This document shows, in pieces, positions 2,721-39,122 of a stretch of DNA of 64,000 nucleotides (position 1 is its first letter; the number at the start of each line of letters is the position of its first letter). The stretch comes from Ruminococcus sp. GTDB taxonomy: Bacteria > Bacillota > Clostridia > Oscillospirales > Acutalibacteraceae. Below the pieces are notes generated by a model. That model had not been told where the DNA came from and ran no database searches. It saw only the letters and a program-made list of their open reading frames with translations. Made by a program: the position numbers and the translations under genes. The stretch is taken from the NCBI GenBank assembly GCA_017411835.1, contig JAFQPG010000014.1, positions 62,001 to 126,000 of the forward strand. The letters are read 5' to 3'.

Positions 2721-4466
2721 TTATGCAAGCTGATATTTATCGGAATAGTCACGATACATACGGTCGTACTCTCCCCCGCTTTTGCGAATTTCTCGCAAAG
2801 CCTGATGGGTATTCAAATCATGGTGCGCTAGGTCAACAACGCAACCCGAGATGTTTGAGCAATGGTCTGATATTCGCTCAAAGTTTGTGAGCAAGTCAGA
2901 CCAGACAAAGCCGACTTTCAAATCACAGCCACCCGACTGCAGACGTTTTGTATGATTTGTGCGCATCTGCTCTTTTAAATTGTCTATGACCTCCTCAAGG
3001 CTTTCTACCCTTAACGCTAAGGTGTAGTCGTTAGTTTCAAAGGCTTTGAAGGATAAGTCTACTATTTCTTCAACCGCTTTTGTAAACACTTTAAGCTCCT
3101 CCTGAGCAGACGAAGAAAAATTCAGTTCTTTTTTGTAGAGCTCTTTGCCTGACTCCATAATATTGCGACAATGGTCAGATATGCGTTCAAAGTCGCCGAT
3201 AACCTTTAAAAGCATTGCCGCCTGCGTGCTGTCATCGGTGCTTATAGGATAACTGCTAAGCTTTACAAGATAAGTGCCCAAGATATCCTCGTATTTGTCG
3301 GTTTTCTTTTCCGCATCTTGCACCTTAGTCGCAAGCTCATCGCTATAATCATATAGTGCAGACAAGCTGTCACTAAACGCATAAGATGTGCATTGTGCCA
3401 TTTCAATAGCAACCTTTCGACAGCTGTTTAAAGCGATTGCAGGAGTGGTGAGCAGACGCTCATCAAGTTGGGTTTTATGCTCTTTCTCCTTAGAGTCAGG
3501 AACAAGTACACAAACGAGCTTTTCGAGTAGCTTGCTCATCGGGAGCATAATTGCTGTGCAAGCCACATTGAACACAGTATGCGCAATCGCTACACCAAAA
3601 GCACTTGCGCTTTGCTCAAGCAACGCAATATTAAAAATTGATTTTACAATGCAGAAGACTACCAGTAAAACAGTAGTGCCAATTATGTTAAAGAACAGGT
3701 GCACTAAAGCGGCACGCTTAGCGTTTTTGCTTGTGCCAACTGAAGATATGAGTGCTGTGACGCAGGTGCCGATATTTTGACCCATAATTATCGGGATTGC
3801 AGCGCCATAGGAAACTTGTCCTGTCGCAGACAGCGCCTGCAAAATACCGACTGATGCTGAGCTTGACTGTATAACCGCAGTAAGCAATGCACCAACTACT
3901 ACACCAAGCACAGGGTTTTCAAACATAATAAACATCTGGCGGAAAGCTTCTACTTCTTTAAGTCCCGATACCGCCCCTGACATTATATCCATACCAAACA
4001 TCAAGGTAGCAAAGCCTAGCAAAATAGCGCCTGTATCGTGCTTTTTGTCTCCTTTTAAGAACATCATAAATATGATGCCGATAAGTGCTAAAATCGGAGT
4101 AAATGAAGTTGGCTTTAAAAGTTGAACAAAAACATTAGAGCTTTCTATTCCGCTAAGAGATAAAATCCACGCGGTAACCGTCGTGCCTACATTTGCGCCC
4201 ATTATTACATTTATCGCTTGGGATAAAGTCATCAAACTTGAGTTTACAAAGCCTACCACCATTACGGTAGTGGCTGACGAACTTTGAATAACGGCGGTGA
4301 CCGCTAAACCTGTCATAAAGCCCGCAAACTTATTTGAAGTAAGTCTTGACAACAGATTTCGCAAACTGCTACCTGCTCTACGCTCTAAGCTTTGGCCCAT
4401 AAAATGCATACCAAACAGGAAAAGACTTAGTCCGCCGATAAGCTCAAGCACATCAAAAATATCCAT
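2721..4466 (-). CDS. Na/Pi cotransporter family protein with PhoU-like tail
   Basis: Predicted sodium-dependent phosphate transporter of the NptA/YjbB type, 581 aa. The N-terminal ~310 residues hold two inverted Na_Pi_cotrans repeats, each with the QSSSA motif (QSSSATTVMVVGF near residue 60 and QSSSASVGILQAL near 200). A C-terminal helical region (about 345-560) resembles PhoU, the regulator of phosphate transport. The ATG is preceded by a GGGGG ribosome-binding site. The ~220 bp upstream (4467-4686) are AT-rich, hold the promoter region and the cysK terminator, and contain no gene. Direction of transport (import or export) cannot be told from sequence. Confidence 0.9.
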   Translation of the reverse strand: MDIFDVLELIGGLSLFLFGMHFMGQSLERRAGSSLRNLLSRLTSNKFAGFMTGLAVTAVIQSSSATTVMVVGFVNSSLMTLSQAINVIMGANVGTTVTAWILSLSGIESSNVFVQLLKPTSFTPILALIGIIFMMFLKGDKKHDTGAILLGFATLMFGMDIMSGAVSGLKEVEAFRQMFIMFENPVLGVVVGALLTAVIQSSSASVGILQALSATGQVSYGAAIPIIMGQNIGTCVTALISSVGTSKNAKRAALVHLFFNIIGTTVLLVVFCIVKSIFNIALLEQSASAFGVAIAHTVFNVACTAIMLPMSKLLEKLVCVLVPDSKEKEHKTQLDERLLTTPAIALNSCRKVAIEMAQCTSYAFSDSLSALYDYSDELATKVQDAEKKTDKYEDILGTYLVKLSSYPISTDDSTQAAMLLKVIGDFERISDHCRNIMESGKELYKKELNFSSSAQEELKVFTKAVEEIVDLSFKAFETNDYTLALRVESLEEVIDNLKEQMRTNHTKRLQSGGCDLKVGFVWSDLLTNFERISDHCSNISGCVVDLAHHDLNTHQALREIRKSGGEYDRMYRDYSDKYQLA

Positions 4467-8007: not shown

Positions 8008-8322
8008 TTAATCTCCTGCTACATTGACAAAAACACGCTCGCCCTGCTTGATATAGTCAAGGTCTTCGCGGGCAATTTTTTCGATGTATTCAGAGAACTC
8101 CTCATCAGATGAGTTATATAATTCGTCCATTTCCTCGTTTTTGATTTCTTGTATAGCGATTTCGTCATTGATAAGTTCAAGCTCGTTTTTCTTCTCGCCG
8201 ATTTGCGAGTAAAGATTTGCAAGTGTTACTACAGAATAAACAGCGAAAATCAATATCACAACGCACAGCACTATGTATCGTAAATTGGAAAGCGGTTTTT
8301 TAGTTTCCTTTTTCGTGCTCAT
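8008..8322 (-). CDS. divIC: Septum formation initiator, DivIC/FtsB family
   Basis: Bitopic division protein that joins FtsL/DivIB in the septal complex. 104 aa: a short basic cytoplasmic start (MSTKKETKKPLSNLRY), one membrane segment (about 16-38, IVLCVVILIFAVYSVVTLA), then a coiled coil (about 40-75, charged heptads) and a short extracytoplasmic tail with the family's EKIAREDLDYIKQGERVF motif. It overlaps the yabQ 3' end by 23 bp, which implies translational coupling in the spore-linked yabPQ transcript, while a vegetative source is also needed. Confidence 0.92.
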   Translation of the reverse strand: MSTKKETKKPLSNLRYIVLCVVILIFAVYSVVTLANLYSQIGEKKNELELINDEIAIQEIKNEEMDELYNSSDEEFSEYIEKIAREDLDYIKQGERVFVNVAGD

Positions 8323-8776
8323 AAATAGTCCTTTTCTTTTTAAACACTATATTTTGTGCTTTATATATTATTCCACCTACATTATACACTACAAATCTAT
8401 TTAGTTTCAATACCTTATTCAAAAAAACTCTAAGTATTTTTAAACTTTTTTTGATTAAGTTTCTTATTATACGTATAAAAAAACTATACACGCTTGTCAT
8501 AAGCTCGCCTAAAGTAAACCTGTAGACAATAAAGCCTACTGCCTCACCAAATAAAACAAAGTATCTGACAGAACCTTTATTAAACGGCATAGCAAACAAA
8601 GAGGTCAAAACTGCGCATACAAAAAAATACAAAATATCGGTGAGTATAATCTGCCATAATCGGTTAAAACCCGAAAGCCTTAAAATACGCACCAAATCGT
8701 AAAGCGATGAAATCATAACGCCAAACAGTAAGGAAAACAAAAAATATACTGTCTGGTCAGCAAGCGAAAACAACAT
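8300..8776 (-). CDS. yabQ: Spore cortex biosynthesis protein YabQ
   Basis: Integral membrane protein required for spore cortex assembly, made in the mother cell. I start it at the ATG 8776-8774 (158 aa), one base after the yabP stop (TGA-T-ATG). The longer frame would begin at a TTG inside yabP without a ribosome-binding site. The N-terminus QTVYFLFSLLFGVMISSLYDLVRILR shows the YabQ pattern of a hydrophobic helix followed by YDxxR. Further hydrophobic stretches lie near residues 37-57 and 62-85, and the C-terminal half is basic. The conserved order yabP-yabQ-divIC supports the call. Confidence 0.88.
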   Translation of the reverse strand: MLFSLADQTVYFLFSLLFGVMISSLYDLVRILRLSGFNRLWQIILTDILYFFVCAVLTSLFAMPFNKGSVRYFVLFGEAVGFIVYRFTLGELMTSVYSFFIRIIRNLIKKSLKILRVFLNKVLKLNRFVVYNVGGIIYKAQNIVFKKKRTIYEHEKGN

Positions 8777-8777
8777 A

Positions 8778-9047
8778 TCACTTAAACAGCTTTGATTTGA
8801 GGTTTTTATCTGACTTTGCAAAATACTGAAGCGAATTTATGATTCCGTCAATACAGACATCTTTTGTGTCTAAATTCAGCTTACTTATATGTAGCGAGTT
8901 TCCCTTTACGATAAGCGGTCCGCAGTCAGTCGTAAGGCTTACTGTCTGCTCGTCAAAACCGACGACATCGGTGACACCGGTTAGAGAAAGTTTGCTTTTG
9001 TTATCAAGTATAAGCGAGTGAGCGGCTTTTGATAATTGTTCAGTCAT
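8778..9047 (-). CDS. yabP: Sporulation protein YabP
   Basis: Small protein (89 aa) of the YabP/YqfC family, needed for cortex formation in B. subtilis and mother-cell specific there. The middle shows the family beta-rich pattern (LSLTGVTDVVGFDEQTVSLTTDCGPLIVKGNSLHISKLNLDTKDVCIDGII). A paralogue, yqfC, is at 63374-63655. The ribosome-binding site GGAGG is 7 bases before the ATG and lies inside an 11-bp stem (9055-9086), whose other arm overlaps a sigma-E-like -10 box. This gives a way to keep the gene silent in vegetative read-through mRNA. Confidence 0.92.
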   Translation of the reverse strand: MTEQLSKAAHSLILDNKSKLSLTGVTDVVGFDEQTVSLTTDCGPLIVKGNSLHISKLNLDTKDVCIDGIINSLQYFAKSDKNLKSKLFK

Positions 9048-9054
9048 AAAAAGA

Positions 9055-9086
9055 CCTCCATATACTACTATCTAAGTATATGGAGG
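9055..9086 (-). promoter_or_regulatory. Inverted repeat that can hide the yabP ribosome-binding site
   Basis: Perfect 11-bp arms CCTCCATATAC (9086-9076 on the minus strand) and GTATATGGAGG (9065-9055) with a 10-base loop. The second arm contains the yabP GGAGG. The first arm contains most of the sigma-E-like -10 box. TCTTTTT follows the stem, so it could also act as a weak terminator. Confidence 0.75.
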
Positions 9087-9104
9087 AAAATTTACAATTA
9101 TGAT
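9075..9104 (-). promoter_or_regulatory. Sigma-E-like promoter of yabP-yabQ-divIC
   Basis: Minus strand: ATCATAAT (9104-9097), a 14-base spacer, CATATACT (9082-9075). The -10 matches the mother-cell consensus CATACAnT at 7 of 8 positions. The start point would fall at about 9066-9069, in the hairpin loop. The -35 overlaps the rqcP stop codon. Confidence 0.7.
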
Positions 9105-9343
9105 TAAACTGAGGTGTACATAGAAGAAGCGTCTTCTTTTCTGACCGTTTCAGCGACGGAGACCACTTTTACTTTTATAGAGCGTGTATCAAATGTTATT
9201 TCAATAACATCGTCGACCTTGACATCGTATGATGCGCGCACAACTTTTCCATTTACAGAAACCTTGCCTGCATCGCAAACCTCGTTTGCTACAGTGCGTC
9301 GCTTGATTATTCTAGACACCTTTAAATATTTATCAATTCTCAT
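9104..9343 (-). CDS. rqcP: S4-domain ribosome quality control protein RqcP (YabO)
   Basis: RNA-binding factor that helps RqcH add alanine tails to nascent chains on stalled 50S subunits. 79 aa, essentially one S4 domain (MRIDKYLKVSRIIKRRTVANEVCDAGKV, then VNGKVV and VKVDDVIEI). Position between mazG/hup and yabP equals the B. subtilis yabN-yabO-yabP order. AGGAG precedes the ATG. Only 34 bp separate it from the hup terminator, so its promoter must overlap that hairpin or it depends on read-through. Confidence 0.92.
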   Translation of the reverse strand: MRIDKYLKVSRIIKRRTVANEVCDAGKVSVNGKVVRASYDVKVDDVIEITFDTRSIKVKVVSVAETVRKEDASSMYTSV

Positions 9344-9377
9344 AATCTACTCCTAATTTGAAATTAAATGAAAAAGG

Positions 9378-9404
9378 AAAAGCCGACAAAATGTCGGCTT
9401 TTCA
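9378..9404 (-). terminator. hup terminator
   Basis: 11-bp stem GAAAAGCCGAC / GTCGGCTTTTC with a 5-base loop, followed by CTTTTTC on the minus strand. It closes the 21-gene run that begins at hprK. Confidence 0.85.
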
Positions 9405-9417
9405 GTCATAAGAAAAA

Positions 9418-9693
9418 TTACTTGTTAACAGCGTCCTTGAAAGCTTTACCAGCTTTGAATGCAGGAACCTTAGAAGCAGGGATTTCGATTGTCTCGTTTG
9501 TTCTTGGGTTGCAACCTGTTCTAGCGTTTCTCTCTCTTCTCTCAAATGTACCGAAGCCTACGAGCTGGATCTTGTCGCCAGCAGCAACAGCGTCTACGAT
9601 TACGTCGAATGTAGCAGCTACAGCCTTCTCAGCATCTTTCTTTGAAAGGTTAGCTTTCTCTGCAACAGCAGCGATGAGTTCTGTCTTCTTCAT
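9418..9693 (-). CDS. hup: HU family DNA-binding protein
   Basis: Nucleoid-associated histone-like protein that bends DNA as a dimer. 91 aa from the ATG at 9693, which has a strong GGAGG site; the frame extends further upstream but without a start signal. [25 protein letters not shown] is the helical body. [29 protein letters not shown] is the conserved core leading into the DNA-gripping arm with its Pro (IPASKVPAF). It is inserted between mazG and rqcP, where B. subtilis has no gene. A short TGTGA/TCACA palindrome lies upstream. Confidence 0.96.
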
Positions 9694-9718
9694 TTTAATT
9701 TCCTCCAAAAAATTAATT

Positions 9719-12801: not shown

Positions 12802-14247
12802 TTAAAAATACTCTGCGTAAAAATCATAAATAGCCTCTTTACGCTTAATAAGCTCGTCAAAGCGTGTGTTATATTCATACGGATATTTAAAATTAAATAT
12901 GCGTGTGAGCTTGTCGCAAGAAAAGGCTTTAAGCTTGCTCACCCCACCTGCACCACAGGCAAGTATCGTATGGGTTTCGTCCATAATATAAACATTATAT
13001 AAGCTTTCAAAACCTTTCTTTGACCAGCCGACATTTTCTAAATTACCCGCCATACGGCTTTGACGATAAAGATAATACGGAATATAGGCTTTATCAAGTA
13101 AGACCTTCTGCGAGTAAGAAAGCATATCAGTGCTTTCATTTTTAATGCCGATATTTACGGCGATGTTCTCGGTATTCAAGGTTGAGCTACGCTTTAGTGC
13201 TAACGTATGGATAGTAACGCTTTCAGGAGAAAGTTCAACGACTTTGTCAAGGGTATCGACAAAGCTATCATAGCAATCGCCCTTAAGTCCTGCAATCAAA
13301 TCCATATTTATGTTATCAAAGCCACATTCACGCGCAAGGTAAAAAGCGTCTATAGCATCTTGTGCGCTATGACGTCTGCCGATAATTTCCAAAACCTCGT
13401 CGTTTAAGGTCTGTGGGTTTATGCTTATGCGATCTACCCCGTTTTTCTTAATCGCTAAGAGCTTATCTTTAGTTATTGTATCAGGGCGTCCTGCTTCAAC
13501 AGTAAACTCGCGACACGTTGACATATCAAAGCATCGAGTAACAGTAGAAAGCACCATATCCATCTGCTCAGCTGTAAGCGTTGTCGGGGTGCCACCGCCC
13601 ATATAAACGGTTTCGAGTTTCAGCTCAAGGTCGTGTGCAATTTTTGCGGTTTCTTCAAGCTCTCTACACAAAAGCACAACATAGTCGTCGATGAGATGCT
13701 TTGCTTTTTCTACAGACTGGGATACAAAGCTACAGTAGTTACAGCGTGACGGACAAAATGGAATCGAAATATAAAGTGAAAAAGACTTTTCTTTTGACAA
13801 AGCTAAAATCTCGCGCTCGGCTTTTTGAGTAAGCAACGCAAGTTCTAACTTCTGGTTGCTGACTTTAAGCTCATTTTTAAAGTAGTCTACTGCATTATCA
13901 ATGCCGTTTTTGTCAATCAGTCTGCGTAAAAGCTTAATCGGTCGAACACCTGTGAGCACACCCCAAGGCAGGGTGGTCTCAAAATACTCACATAAAAGCG
14001 AGTAAAGAAGCTGTGCCATTTTAAGCTCATCGAAAGCTTCCTCCCCTGTTTTAGGGGCACAAAGCGATTTTTCAAAAGCATCAATGCAAAGCTTAACTTC
14101 AATATTATCTTTATAAGATGTAAGTACATACGGACTATTTATAGACTCGTATTCTTTTAATACAGTAATCTTATCATACGGGAAGAAAGCCCTTACCAGG
14201 TTTTCCATCTCGTAATGAAAAGTATGGCTGTCGATATATAAATTCAT
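12802..14247 (-). CDS. hemZ: Radical SAM coproporphyrinogen III oxidase-like protein HemZ
   Basis: 481 aa. The radical-SAM cluster motif is in IPFCPSRCNYCSF (CxxxCxxC, about 172-181). GGGTPTTL and DLIAGLKGD follow, both hallmarks of the HemN/HemZ/HemW group. The N-terminal ~165 residues form the HemZ-specific extension (GVLTGVRPIKLL). The name comes from B. subtilis, where HemZ is thought to act in anaerobic haem synthesis. In haem-free anaerobes the true substrate is uncertain. The order rel-dtd-MBL-hemZ is widely seen in Clostridia. The gap to the MBL gene is 10 bp. Confidence 0.87.
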   Translation of the reverse strand: MNLYIDSHTFHYEMENLVRAFFPYDKITVLKEYESINSPYVLTSYKDNIEVKLCIDAFEKSLCAPKTGEEAFDELKMAQLLYSLLCEYFETTLPWGVLTGVRPIKLLRRLIDKNGIDNAVDYFKNELKVSNQKLELALLTQKAEREILALSKEKSFSLYISIPFCPSRCNYCSFVSQSVEKAKHLIDDYVVLLCRELEETAKIAHDLELKLETVYMGGGTPTTLTAEQMDMVLSTVTRCFDMSTCREFTVEAGRPDTITKDKLLAIKKNGVDRISINPQTLNDEVLEIIGRRHSAQDAIDAFYLARECGFDNINMDLIAGLKGDCYDSFVDTLDKVVELSPESVTIHTLALKRSSTLNTENIAVNIGIKNESTDMLSYSQKVLLDKAYIPYYLYRQSRMAGNLENVGWSKKGFESLYNVYIMDETHTILACGAGGVSKLKAFSCDKLTRIFNFKYPYEYNTRFDELIKRKEAIYDFYAEYF

Positions 14248-38750: not shown

Positions 38751-39122
38751 TTAAAACGGTCTGGTGTTAGTAACAACACCTGCGTTAGCCCAGGCACGGC
38801 GTGCAGGAGCTTTTTTGATATTCTTAATTCTGACGTTGCCTGTGCCATACATAAATTCAACAGCAGCAGCGATACAAGCAAGCACATCAGGGCTTACACC
38901 GCCAGAAGCTGAAGCGCAAGTAGCTCCACCGCCTGCACCAGTGCCCTTTGGAGTATCGTCGTCATCTTTTTTAGACTTGTCCTTTTTAGGTTTGTTCTGG
39001 ATATTATAAACGATAGTACTGTAGATTTTGATAATAACGATAAGTAAAATCAATACCGCGAATACTACAACAAAGCCTGTAATAAGTACAGTCCAGGCTT
39101 GCATCATATCGATACCGTCCAT
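38751..39122 (-). CDS. oadG: OadG family gamma subunit of Na+ decarboxylase
   Basis: 123 aa with one N-terminal membrane segment (WTVLITGFVVVFAVLILLIVIIKIY), a basic then acidic linker, a Gly/Ala-rich stretch and a conserved C-terminal part (LACIAAAVEFMYGTGNVRIKNIKKAPARRAWANAG). Small gamma subunits of this kind anchor and stabilise the alpha-beta complex and may bind the metal. It is first in the operon, 18 bp before oadB, with a good sigma-A promoter. Confidence 0.85.
   Translation of the reverse strand: MDGIDMMQAWTVLITGFVVVFAVLILLIVIIKIYSTIVYNIQNKPKKDKSKKDDDDTPKGTGAGGGATCASASGGVSPDVLACIAAAVEFMYGTGNVRIKNIKKAPARRAWANAGVVTNTRPF

Follow-up and report, generated by a model that had tools for sequence, protein, structure and literature searches.

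A covarying hairpin uniting a sigma-E-type promoter with the ribosome-binding site of yabP as a possible developmental insulator in Ruminococcus-like spore formers

The window analysed here, meaning the whole 64,000-nt stretch of DNA, carries on its minus strand the gene order hup, rqcP, yabP, yabQ and divIC, as given by the list of open reading frames (ORFs), where rqcP is the name that we presume for an S4-domain gene codirectional with yabP (Table 1). The rqcP frame ends at a -35-like box, and the 56 nt that separate rqcP from yabP in the window sequence hold a perfect 12-bp stem with an 8-nt loop, whose 5' arm contains a -10-like box and whose 3' arm contains the yabP Shine-Dalgarno sequence (SD), followed up to the start codon by a U-tract. 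The original prediction for this locus had described an 11-bp perfect inverted repeat with the yabP GGAGG in its second arm and most of the -10 box in its first; the repeat is indeed perfect and the GGAGG lies where it was placed, but the stem extends to 12 bp (9055-9066 / 9075-9086) and the -10 box lies within the first arm in its entirety. The -35-like TCATAAT, the TCTTTTT tail and the recurrence of the arrangement at other genes were absent from that account. Counting 7 nt below the -10 box, transcription in sporulation would start at about 9068, inside the loop.

Table 1. Features of the yabP region and of related leaders. Positions are those of the window unless a locus number precedes them.
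Feature	Position	Strand	Basis or context
hup	9418-9696	-	ORF list
Terminator-like hairpin between hup and rqcP	9403-9377	-
S4-domain gene, taken as rqcP	9104-9343	-	ORF; PF01479, 45 bits; upstream of yabP
-35-like box TCATAAT	9103-9097	-	Sequence; directly after rqcP stop, 14 nt above -10
Hairpin 5' arm CCTCCATATACT	9086-9075	-	Inverted-repeat search; covariation
-10-like box CATATACT	9082-9075	-	Sequence; wholly inside 5' arm
Hairpin loop, 8 nt	9074-9067	-	Inverted-repeat search
Hairpin 3' arm AGTATATGGAGG	9066-9055	-	Inverted-repeat search; covariation
yabP SD GGAGG	9059-9055	-	Sequence; inside 3' arm
U-tract TCTTTTT	9054-9048	-	Sequence; terminator-like scan; between SD and ATG
yabP	8778-9047	-	TIGR02892, 76.4 bits (cut-off 75.4); PF07873
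yabQ	8300-8821	-	PF09578; TIGR02893; downstream of yabP, same direction
Sigma-A-like promoter TTGAAA-18-TATAAT	8410-8381	-	Near-consensus; inside yabQ, ahead of divIC
divIC	8008-8322	-	Last of the gene order, after yabQ
spoIVA leader	40811-40745	-	Covariance-model match, 33.9 bits
OAD_gamma-family gene	38751-39122	-	Behind spoIVA
Stem at OAD_gamma-family gene, 15 bp	39203-39189 / 39143-39129	-	Hides SD; p 0.01
Sigma-A-like promoter TTGAAA-17-TATACT	39188-39160	-	In the loop of the OAD_gamma stem
Membrane-transporter-like gene (by eye)	start near 4466	-	19-bp SD-hiding stem, 40-nt loop, p 0.01
277-aa conserved gene	L143:1565-2395		Own genome: behind PcsB-like M23 peptidase gene
282-aa conserved gene	L145:1601-2446		Own genome: behind PcrA/UvrD-like helicase gene
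DUF6512 gene	L157: start near 13179	-	Also in L147

The yabP leader of the window has a computed folding energy of -30.3 kcal/mol (z -5.3), which none of 200 shuffles equalled, and in this fold the -35 letters also pair with the start codon region. Perfect repeats of at least 12 bp with loops of 3-20 nt match six times at four distinct places in the window and not at all in three shuffled windows. An Rfam element at the yabP leader was rejected, as nothing between 8700 and 9500 reached a gathering score; the one sub-threshold match there, AgrB at 26.7 bits (gathering 40), lies over the hup terminator at 9322-9406 on the plus strand and is probably due to chance.

The original prediction had proposed that the rqcP-yabP gaps of relatives be aligned for conservation of the stem. 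In a sample of 100 genomes of the genus, yabP was present in 91, and 90 loci were used, a partial match in G052 being left out. When SD-covering stems were scored against dinucleotide shuffles, 75 of the 90 yabP leaders carried a significant stem at p<0.05 and 70 at p<0.01, the SD lying within the stem in all 75 by design of the test; the stem is thus kept among relatives and, as detailed below, it covaries. Other SDs of the same loci, scored as controls, gave no stem at hup (0/31), rqcP (0/56) or mazG (0/5; together 0/92) and a single one at yabQ (1/20). As background within the own genome, 5 of 305 scored genes reached a stem score of at least 24 (window plus 20 stretches, 420,575 bases), which is an overestimate because the 20 stretches were partly chosen to include covariance-model matches; the yabP stem scores 29.0, yabP itself falling below the length limit of that scan. 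Since the species are related, counts per species are not independent.

Ten yabP leaders with rqcP upstream have no stem that is significant by the shuffle test, and two of these ten, judged by eye, seem to have an insert that separates the promoter from the SD. By eye, L034/L096 and L027/L105 appear to have extra sequence downstream of the sigma-E-type promoter and ahead of the SD of yabP.

Covariation was measured on a plain alignment, unfitted to structure, of 80 of the 90 leaders (79 distinct). It leaves out the loci without rqcP (L018, L032, L033, L068, L078), those with an apparent insertion (L027, L034), L061, whose leader is identical to that of L060, L079, with only 52 nt of contig upstream of the ATG, and L007, an arbitrary omission, whose stem has p 0.0498. 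In this alignment 87.8% of stem cells are paired, and 103 cells are changed on both sides, as against 46.5 +/- 6.4 (sd) in shuffled alignments and 10 to 38 in slid versions. Double changes occur at 9 of the 12 stem pairs, a count matched by 42 of 500 shuffles, and RNAalifold run on the plain alignment retains 6 of the 12, each of which shows double changes. Mapped onto a poorly resolved YabP protein tree, the five varied pairs need a minimum of 3 to 7 changes. At the second base of the -10 box, A is paired with U in 33 of 79 rows and G with C in 30, which indicates that promoter and SD arm change together. Chance complementarity as the source of the stem is rejected by the shuffles, the in-locus controls and the covariation.

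A perfect palindrome lying across a -10 box might also be a DNA operator bound by SpoIIID or another repressor, and the yabPQ genes of B. subtilis are listed as sigma-E-controlled and SpoIIID-repressed in PMC517825. Evenly scored G-U pairs, however, outnumber A-C mismatches 65 to 19 (p 5e-7 if independent), an excess which fits pairing in RNA of the yabP strand better than a palindrome in DNA, and the arms, anchored at the SD, are spaced by 3 to 37 nt across all 75 stems. We therefore regard an operator as highly improbable.

The promoter boxes are similarly regular. The motif C[AG]TA is found at the -10 in 74 of the 80 aligned leaders, and among the 76 leaders with room for a -35 box, 65 match a sigma-E pattern at six or more of seven positions (a raw count) and 65 have a spacing of 14, each taken as the best of spacings 12-16. 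Boxes resembling the sigma-E -35 and -10 thus stand at near-fixed spacing when judged by this pattern, and sigma-E is the probable user of this promoter. With the start set 7 nt below the -10 box, the computed cost of opening the SD, for the 72 aligned leaders among the 75 with a stem, averages 12.5 kcal/mol in read-through RNA versus 3.5 in promoter RNA, and the difference exceeds 1 kcal/mol in all 72; for the window leader the costs are 15.1 and 3.9 kcal/mol, respectively.

The stem also tracks the upstream neighbour of yabP. In five species rqcP is missing ahead of yabP within the DNA fetched, and none of them has the stem (0/5), as against 75 of 85 other loci, a number in which L079 is counted as rqcP-upstream with its upstream gene beyond the contig end. 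Fisher's test of this association gives p 7e-5 with ancestry ignored. On the YabP tree the neighbourhood has changed about three times, at least two of them on firm branches, and its independent-pairs test cannot reach significance; the association between the stem and the rqcP neighbourhood is therefore only suggestive. A codirectional ORF still lies upstream in four of the five rqcP-less species, namely a polysaccharide deacetylase-like ORF (by eye) in three and a 393-aa ORF in one, and ORFs on the opposite strand precede yabP in the fifth. At seven loci with rqcP 359-611 nt distant, the stem is still found at the SD. Another codirectional ORF intervenes in the four longest-gap loci mapped (L098, L099, L100, L106), and none was seen in L102 and L107, where the gap is also long.

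The arrangement is not confined to yabP. A covariance model built from the yabP leaders found further sites in the own genome and in 25 genomes of the genus, and the same shuffle test was applied to the 30 loci most similar to each query. Significant stems were present at the 277-aa conserved gene in 30/30 loci, at a TIGR04086 membrane gene in 26/29 (by eye, a yajC-like ORF precedes it in about 27 of 29), at a sigG-like gene in 20/29 (behind an rmuC-like ORF in three of four loci inspected by eye), at the 282-aa conserved gene in 20/30 and at a PdaB-like deacetylase gene in 18/30 (TIGR02764, 229.4 bits against a cut-off of 237.4; cysS-like ORF ahead in 19 of 30, by eye). The sigG-like count includes two negatives of nine (L431, L441) that were scored from internal starts, L419 having given no result; TIGR02850 is the best match of this gene yet stays under cut-off in 40 of 40 genomes, and in many of its leaders a sigma-F-like -10 box lies within the arm. 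The 282-aa gene has longer loops, 33-57 in most of its stems, and a promoter matching no assignable type. Across these five gene families the T fraction of the SD-ATG spacers is 0.59 to 0.78, and in the own genome the stem is significant at six genes, namely yabP and one member of each family. The 277-aa and 282-aa proteins, each present in 55 of 60 genus genomes, have no Pfam match at 0.001 and no NCBIfam match over cut-off, and their genes are candidates for new sporulation genes.

The sporulation gene spoIVA served as a negative control. Its leaders in the genus have a significant stem in only 3 of 30 loci and their spacers are A-rich; in 18 of the 30, a codirectional ORF of at least 479 codons, which we take to be a sipL-like sporulation gene, is no more than 60 nt from spoIVA. 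The idea that the stem is a property of all sigma-E genes is accordingly rejected, even though spoIVA of three other genera matches the model. The same result bears on the view that the stem is a by-product, the SD and the sigma-E -10 being complementary by chance so that sigma-E genes with short leaders would all show one. The motifs are indeed short, and ATA and TAT stretches pair readily, but besides the spoIVA result the shuffles and the exchange of A-U for G-C at the second -10 base speak against this view, to which we give very little credence.

Since the U-tract follows directly on the stem, the hairpin scores as terminator-like, and a terminator scan indeed picks it out. The U-tract goes with the stem: SD-ATG spacers are 71% T with TTTT in 46/75 when a stem is present and 49% T with TTTT in 2/15 in stemless yabP leaders, and the control spacers have 43% T and TTTT in 5/61 (rqcP), 34% and 0/24 (hup), 42% and 5/18 (yabQ), 27% and 0/4 (mazG) and 21% and 0/30 (spoIVA). 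A hairpin that acts on translation alone, with full read-through RNA being made, the SD hidden and the U-rich spacer without a role, would account for the SD lying in the stem in all 75 leaders (by test design), for the stem staying at the SD where rqcP is distant, and for the existence of long-loop stems and of 29 stems of 75 without TTTT. It leaves unexplained why T should be enriched in spacers with a stem relative to stemless and spoIVA spacers and why T-rich spacers recur at the five other stem-bearing gene families, and we consider it unlikely.

The opposite possibility is that the hairpin does no more than end the vegetative transcript, the SD lying inside it for economy. Besides the U-tract and the scan match, the terminator score favors this possibility in the window, where the hairpin reaches -7.2 and the hup terminator -8.8 (our own coding of the score formula, useful for ranks only). 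Across the genus, however, 52 of 75 stems could be scored, with a median of -18.5; the score exceeds 0 in 14 of 75, and the 61 that do not pass 0 include 23 unscorable ones. A terminator, moreover, has no need of an SD or a -10 box, and loops of 33-57, as in most stems of the 282-aa gene, are long for one. Termination alone is thus a quite improbable account. A restart of transcription downstream is nevertheless to be expected if vegetative transcription ends at yabP, and divIC, which is vegetative by its known role, is preceded by a promoter matching at least 10 of 12 positions below the start of yabQ in 21 of 29 loci, the window included; this promoter lends support to a putative termination at yabP. 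The terminator-like hairpin between hup and rqcP suggests that rqcP may itself depend on read-through from hup.

On the observed anatomy, conservation, covariation, computed SD opening and recurrence at other genes, we consider it reasonably probable that a single hairpin serves as promoter, ribosome-site lock and probable terminator, and so as a developmental insulator of yabP. In growing cells, RNA polymerase leaving rqcP would copy both arms, the read-through RNA would fold and bury the yabP SD, and the stem and U-tract would probably end part of the transcripts ahead of yabP, so that yabP would be silent, with the silencing presumably shared between translation block and termination. In the mother cell, RNA would start in the loop, at the sigma-E-type promoter that has its -10 box in the 5' arm; such RNA would have the 3' arm only, leaving the SD open and no terminator, and yabP and yabQ would be made. 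Because the lock opens only if transcription starts inside it, no repressor would be needed for silence. Several observations count against this reading: the ten leaders behind rqcP that have no significant stem, the 29 stems of 75 without TTTT, the 13 stems with loops longer than 12, the low terminator scores, the small number of neighbourhood changes on the tree, the codirectional ORFs that precede yabP in four of the five rqcP-less species, and the 41 of 65 leaders outside the genus in which a significant stem is absent. The original prediction, that read-through RNA hides the SD and sigma-E RNA cannot, keeps its core given the conservation, the covariation, the placement of the promoter, the computed SD opening and the missing stem in the five rqcP-less species; it was too narrow in treating yabP as a single case and in leaving out termination, which the U-tract accompanying the stem makes a natural second part of the model.

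Outside the genus the design is common in the order but not universal. Under stricter filters, the covariance model matches in 19 of 147 order genomes with E of 0.02 or less, counting the own genome, and the genes matched (by eye) include yabP, again preceded by rqcP, in two other families; spoIVA, with full stems, in three genera; a TIGR04086-like gene that follows yajC; and genes that follow secF-, tyrS- and gpr-like ORFs. From the 134 genomes with a match we fetched 69 non-genus yabP loci, 40 of these loci being hand-picked, and scored 65; two (L359, L360) of the four without a script result are the model-matching leaders L309 and L311. A significant stem was present in 24 of the 65 at p<0.05 and in 10 at p<0.01 (p 3e-15 against 5%) and absent from 41, and controls in 29 of the 69 loci gave no stem at rqcP (0/13) or hup (0/15). 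In these stems the anti-SD often lies just above the -10 box, which is then in the loop. We judge it slightly better than an even bet that a class of insulators exists, with the -10 box in the 5' arm, the SD in the 3' arm and a U-tract that makes the whole a terminator, set at sporulation genes of both compartments behind housekeeping genes in Ruminococcus-like spore formers and, less often, in the order; in the window genome it would operate at the six genes named above and perhaps, with the roles swapped, at a vegetative gene that follows spoIVA.

The logic of a lock on read-through RNA is itself already known. In transposase genes of the IS10 kind, RNA entering from outside folds over the ribosome site and RNA from the own promoter does not; these, unlike yabP, belong to mobile elements, and their arms are the terminal repeats. 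An intrinsic terminator shares with the yabP hairpin the stem followed by a U-tract, whereas the yabP stem also holds the SD and the -10 box. For phage T4 gene e (lysozyme), the original prediction cited the logic correctly: a long early RNA hides the ribosome site, and RNA started from late promoters just upstream, being without the 5' strand of that structure, is translated (PMC3014915). T4 is a phage, with late promoters in the role of the sporulation promoter, and what that account says of the structure mentions no U-tract. Closest is sigG (spoIIIG) of B. subtilis, where, according to the relevant passage of PMC5942855, which credits Masuda 1988 and Sun 1991, a hairpin of at least 20 pairs was suggested as the block on read-through transcripts of PspoIIG; transcripts that start at PsigG cannot form it. 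There, too, a sporulation gene lies behind another operon, but the read-through described comes from the sporulation operon spoIIG, and yabP differs in having rqcP upstream, a sigma-E-type promoter, a 12-bp stem, a U-tract and genus-wide conservation. The sigG-like gene of the genus bears the same design as the yabP leader.

In the open-licence PMC literature we found no earlier report of such a lock at yabP, of a sporulation -10 box, SD and U-tract in one covarying hairpin, or of such a design repeated at several sporulation genes that follow housekeeping genes. In many bacteria sporulation genes lie among vegetative ones, and the question of what silences them when adjacent genes are expressed is rarely raised; the hairpin design would be an answer that needs no repressor and is visible in the sequence. 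It suggests that the hairpin put forward for sigG in 1988 is a single instance of a design used repeatedly, and covarying hairpins of this kind may help to locate developmental promoters in spore formers not yet cultured.

Several further leaders touch on this design. The spoIVA leader of the window, the second-best covariance-model match in the own genome, has sigma-E-like TCATAAA and TCATACATT boxes and a broken SD stem that is not significant (p 0.24). The SD-hiding stem of the OAD_gamma-family gene, with its sigma-A-like promoter in the loop, is perhaps a reverse lock that shields a vegetative gene from sporulation read-through. A long-looped stem likewise hides the SD of the membrane-transporter-like gene (Table 1). 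At the DUF6512 gene, the arms CCCCCATCATATACTT / AAATATGTGATGGGGG lie over the SD with TTTTT behind (p 0.01), and the 5' arm again contains CATATACT.
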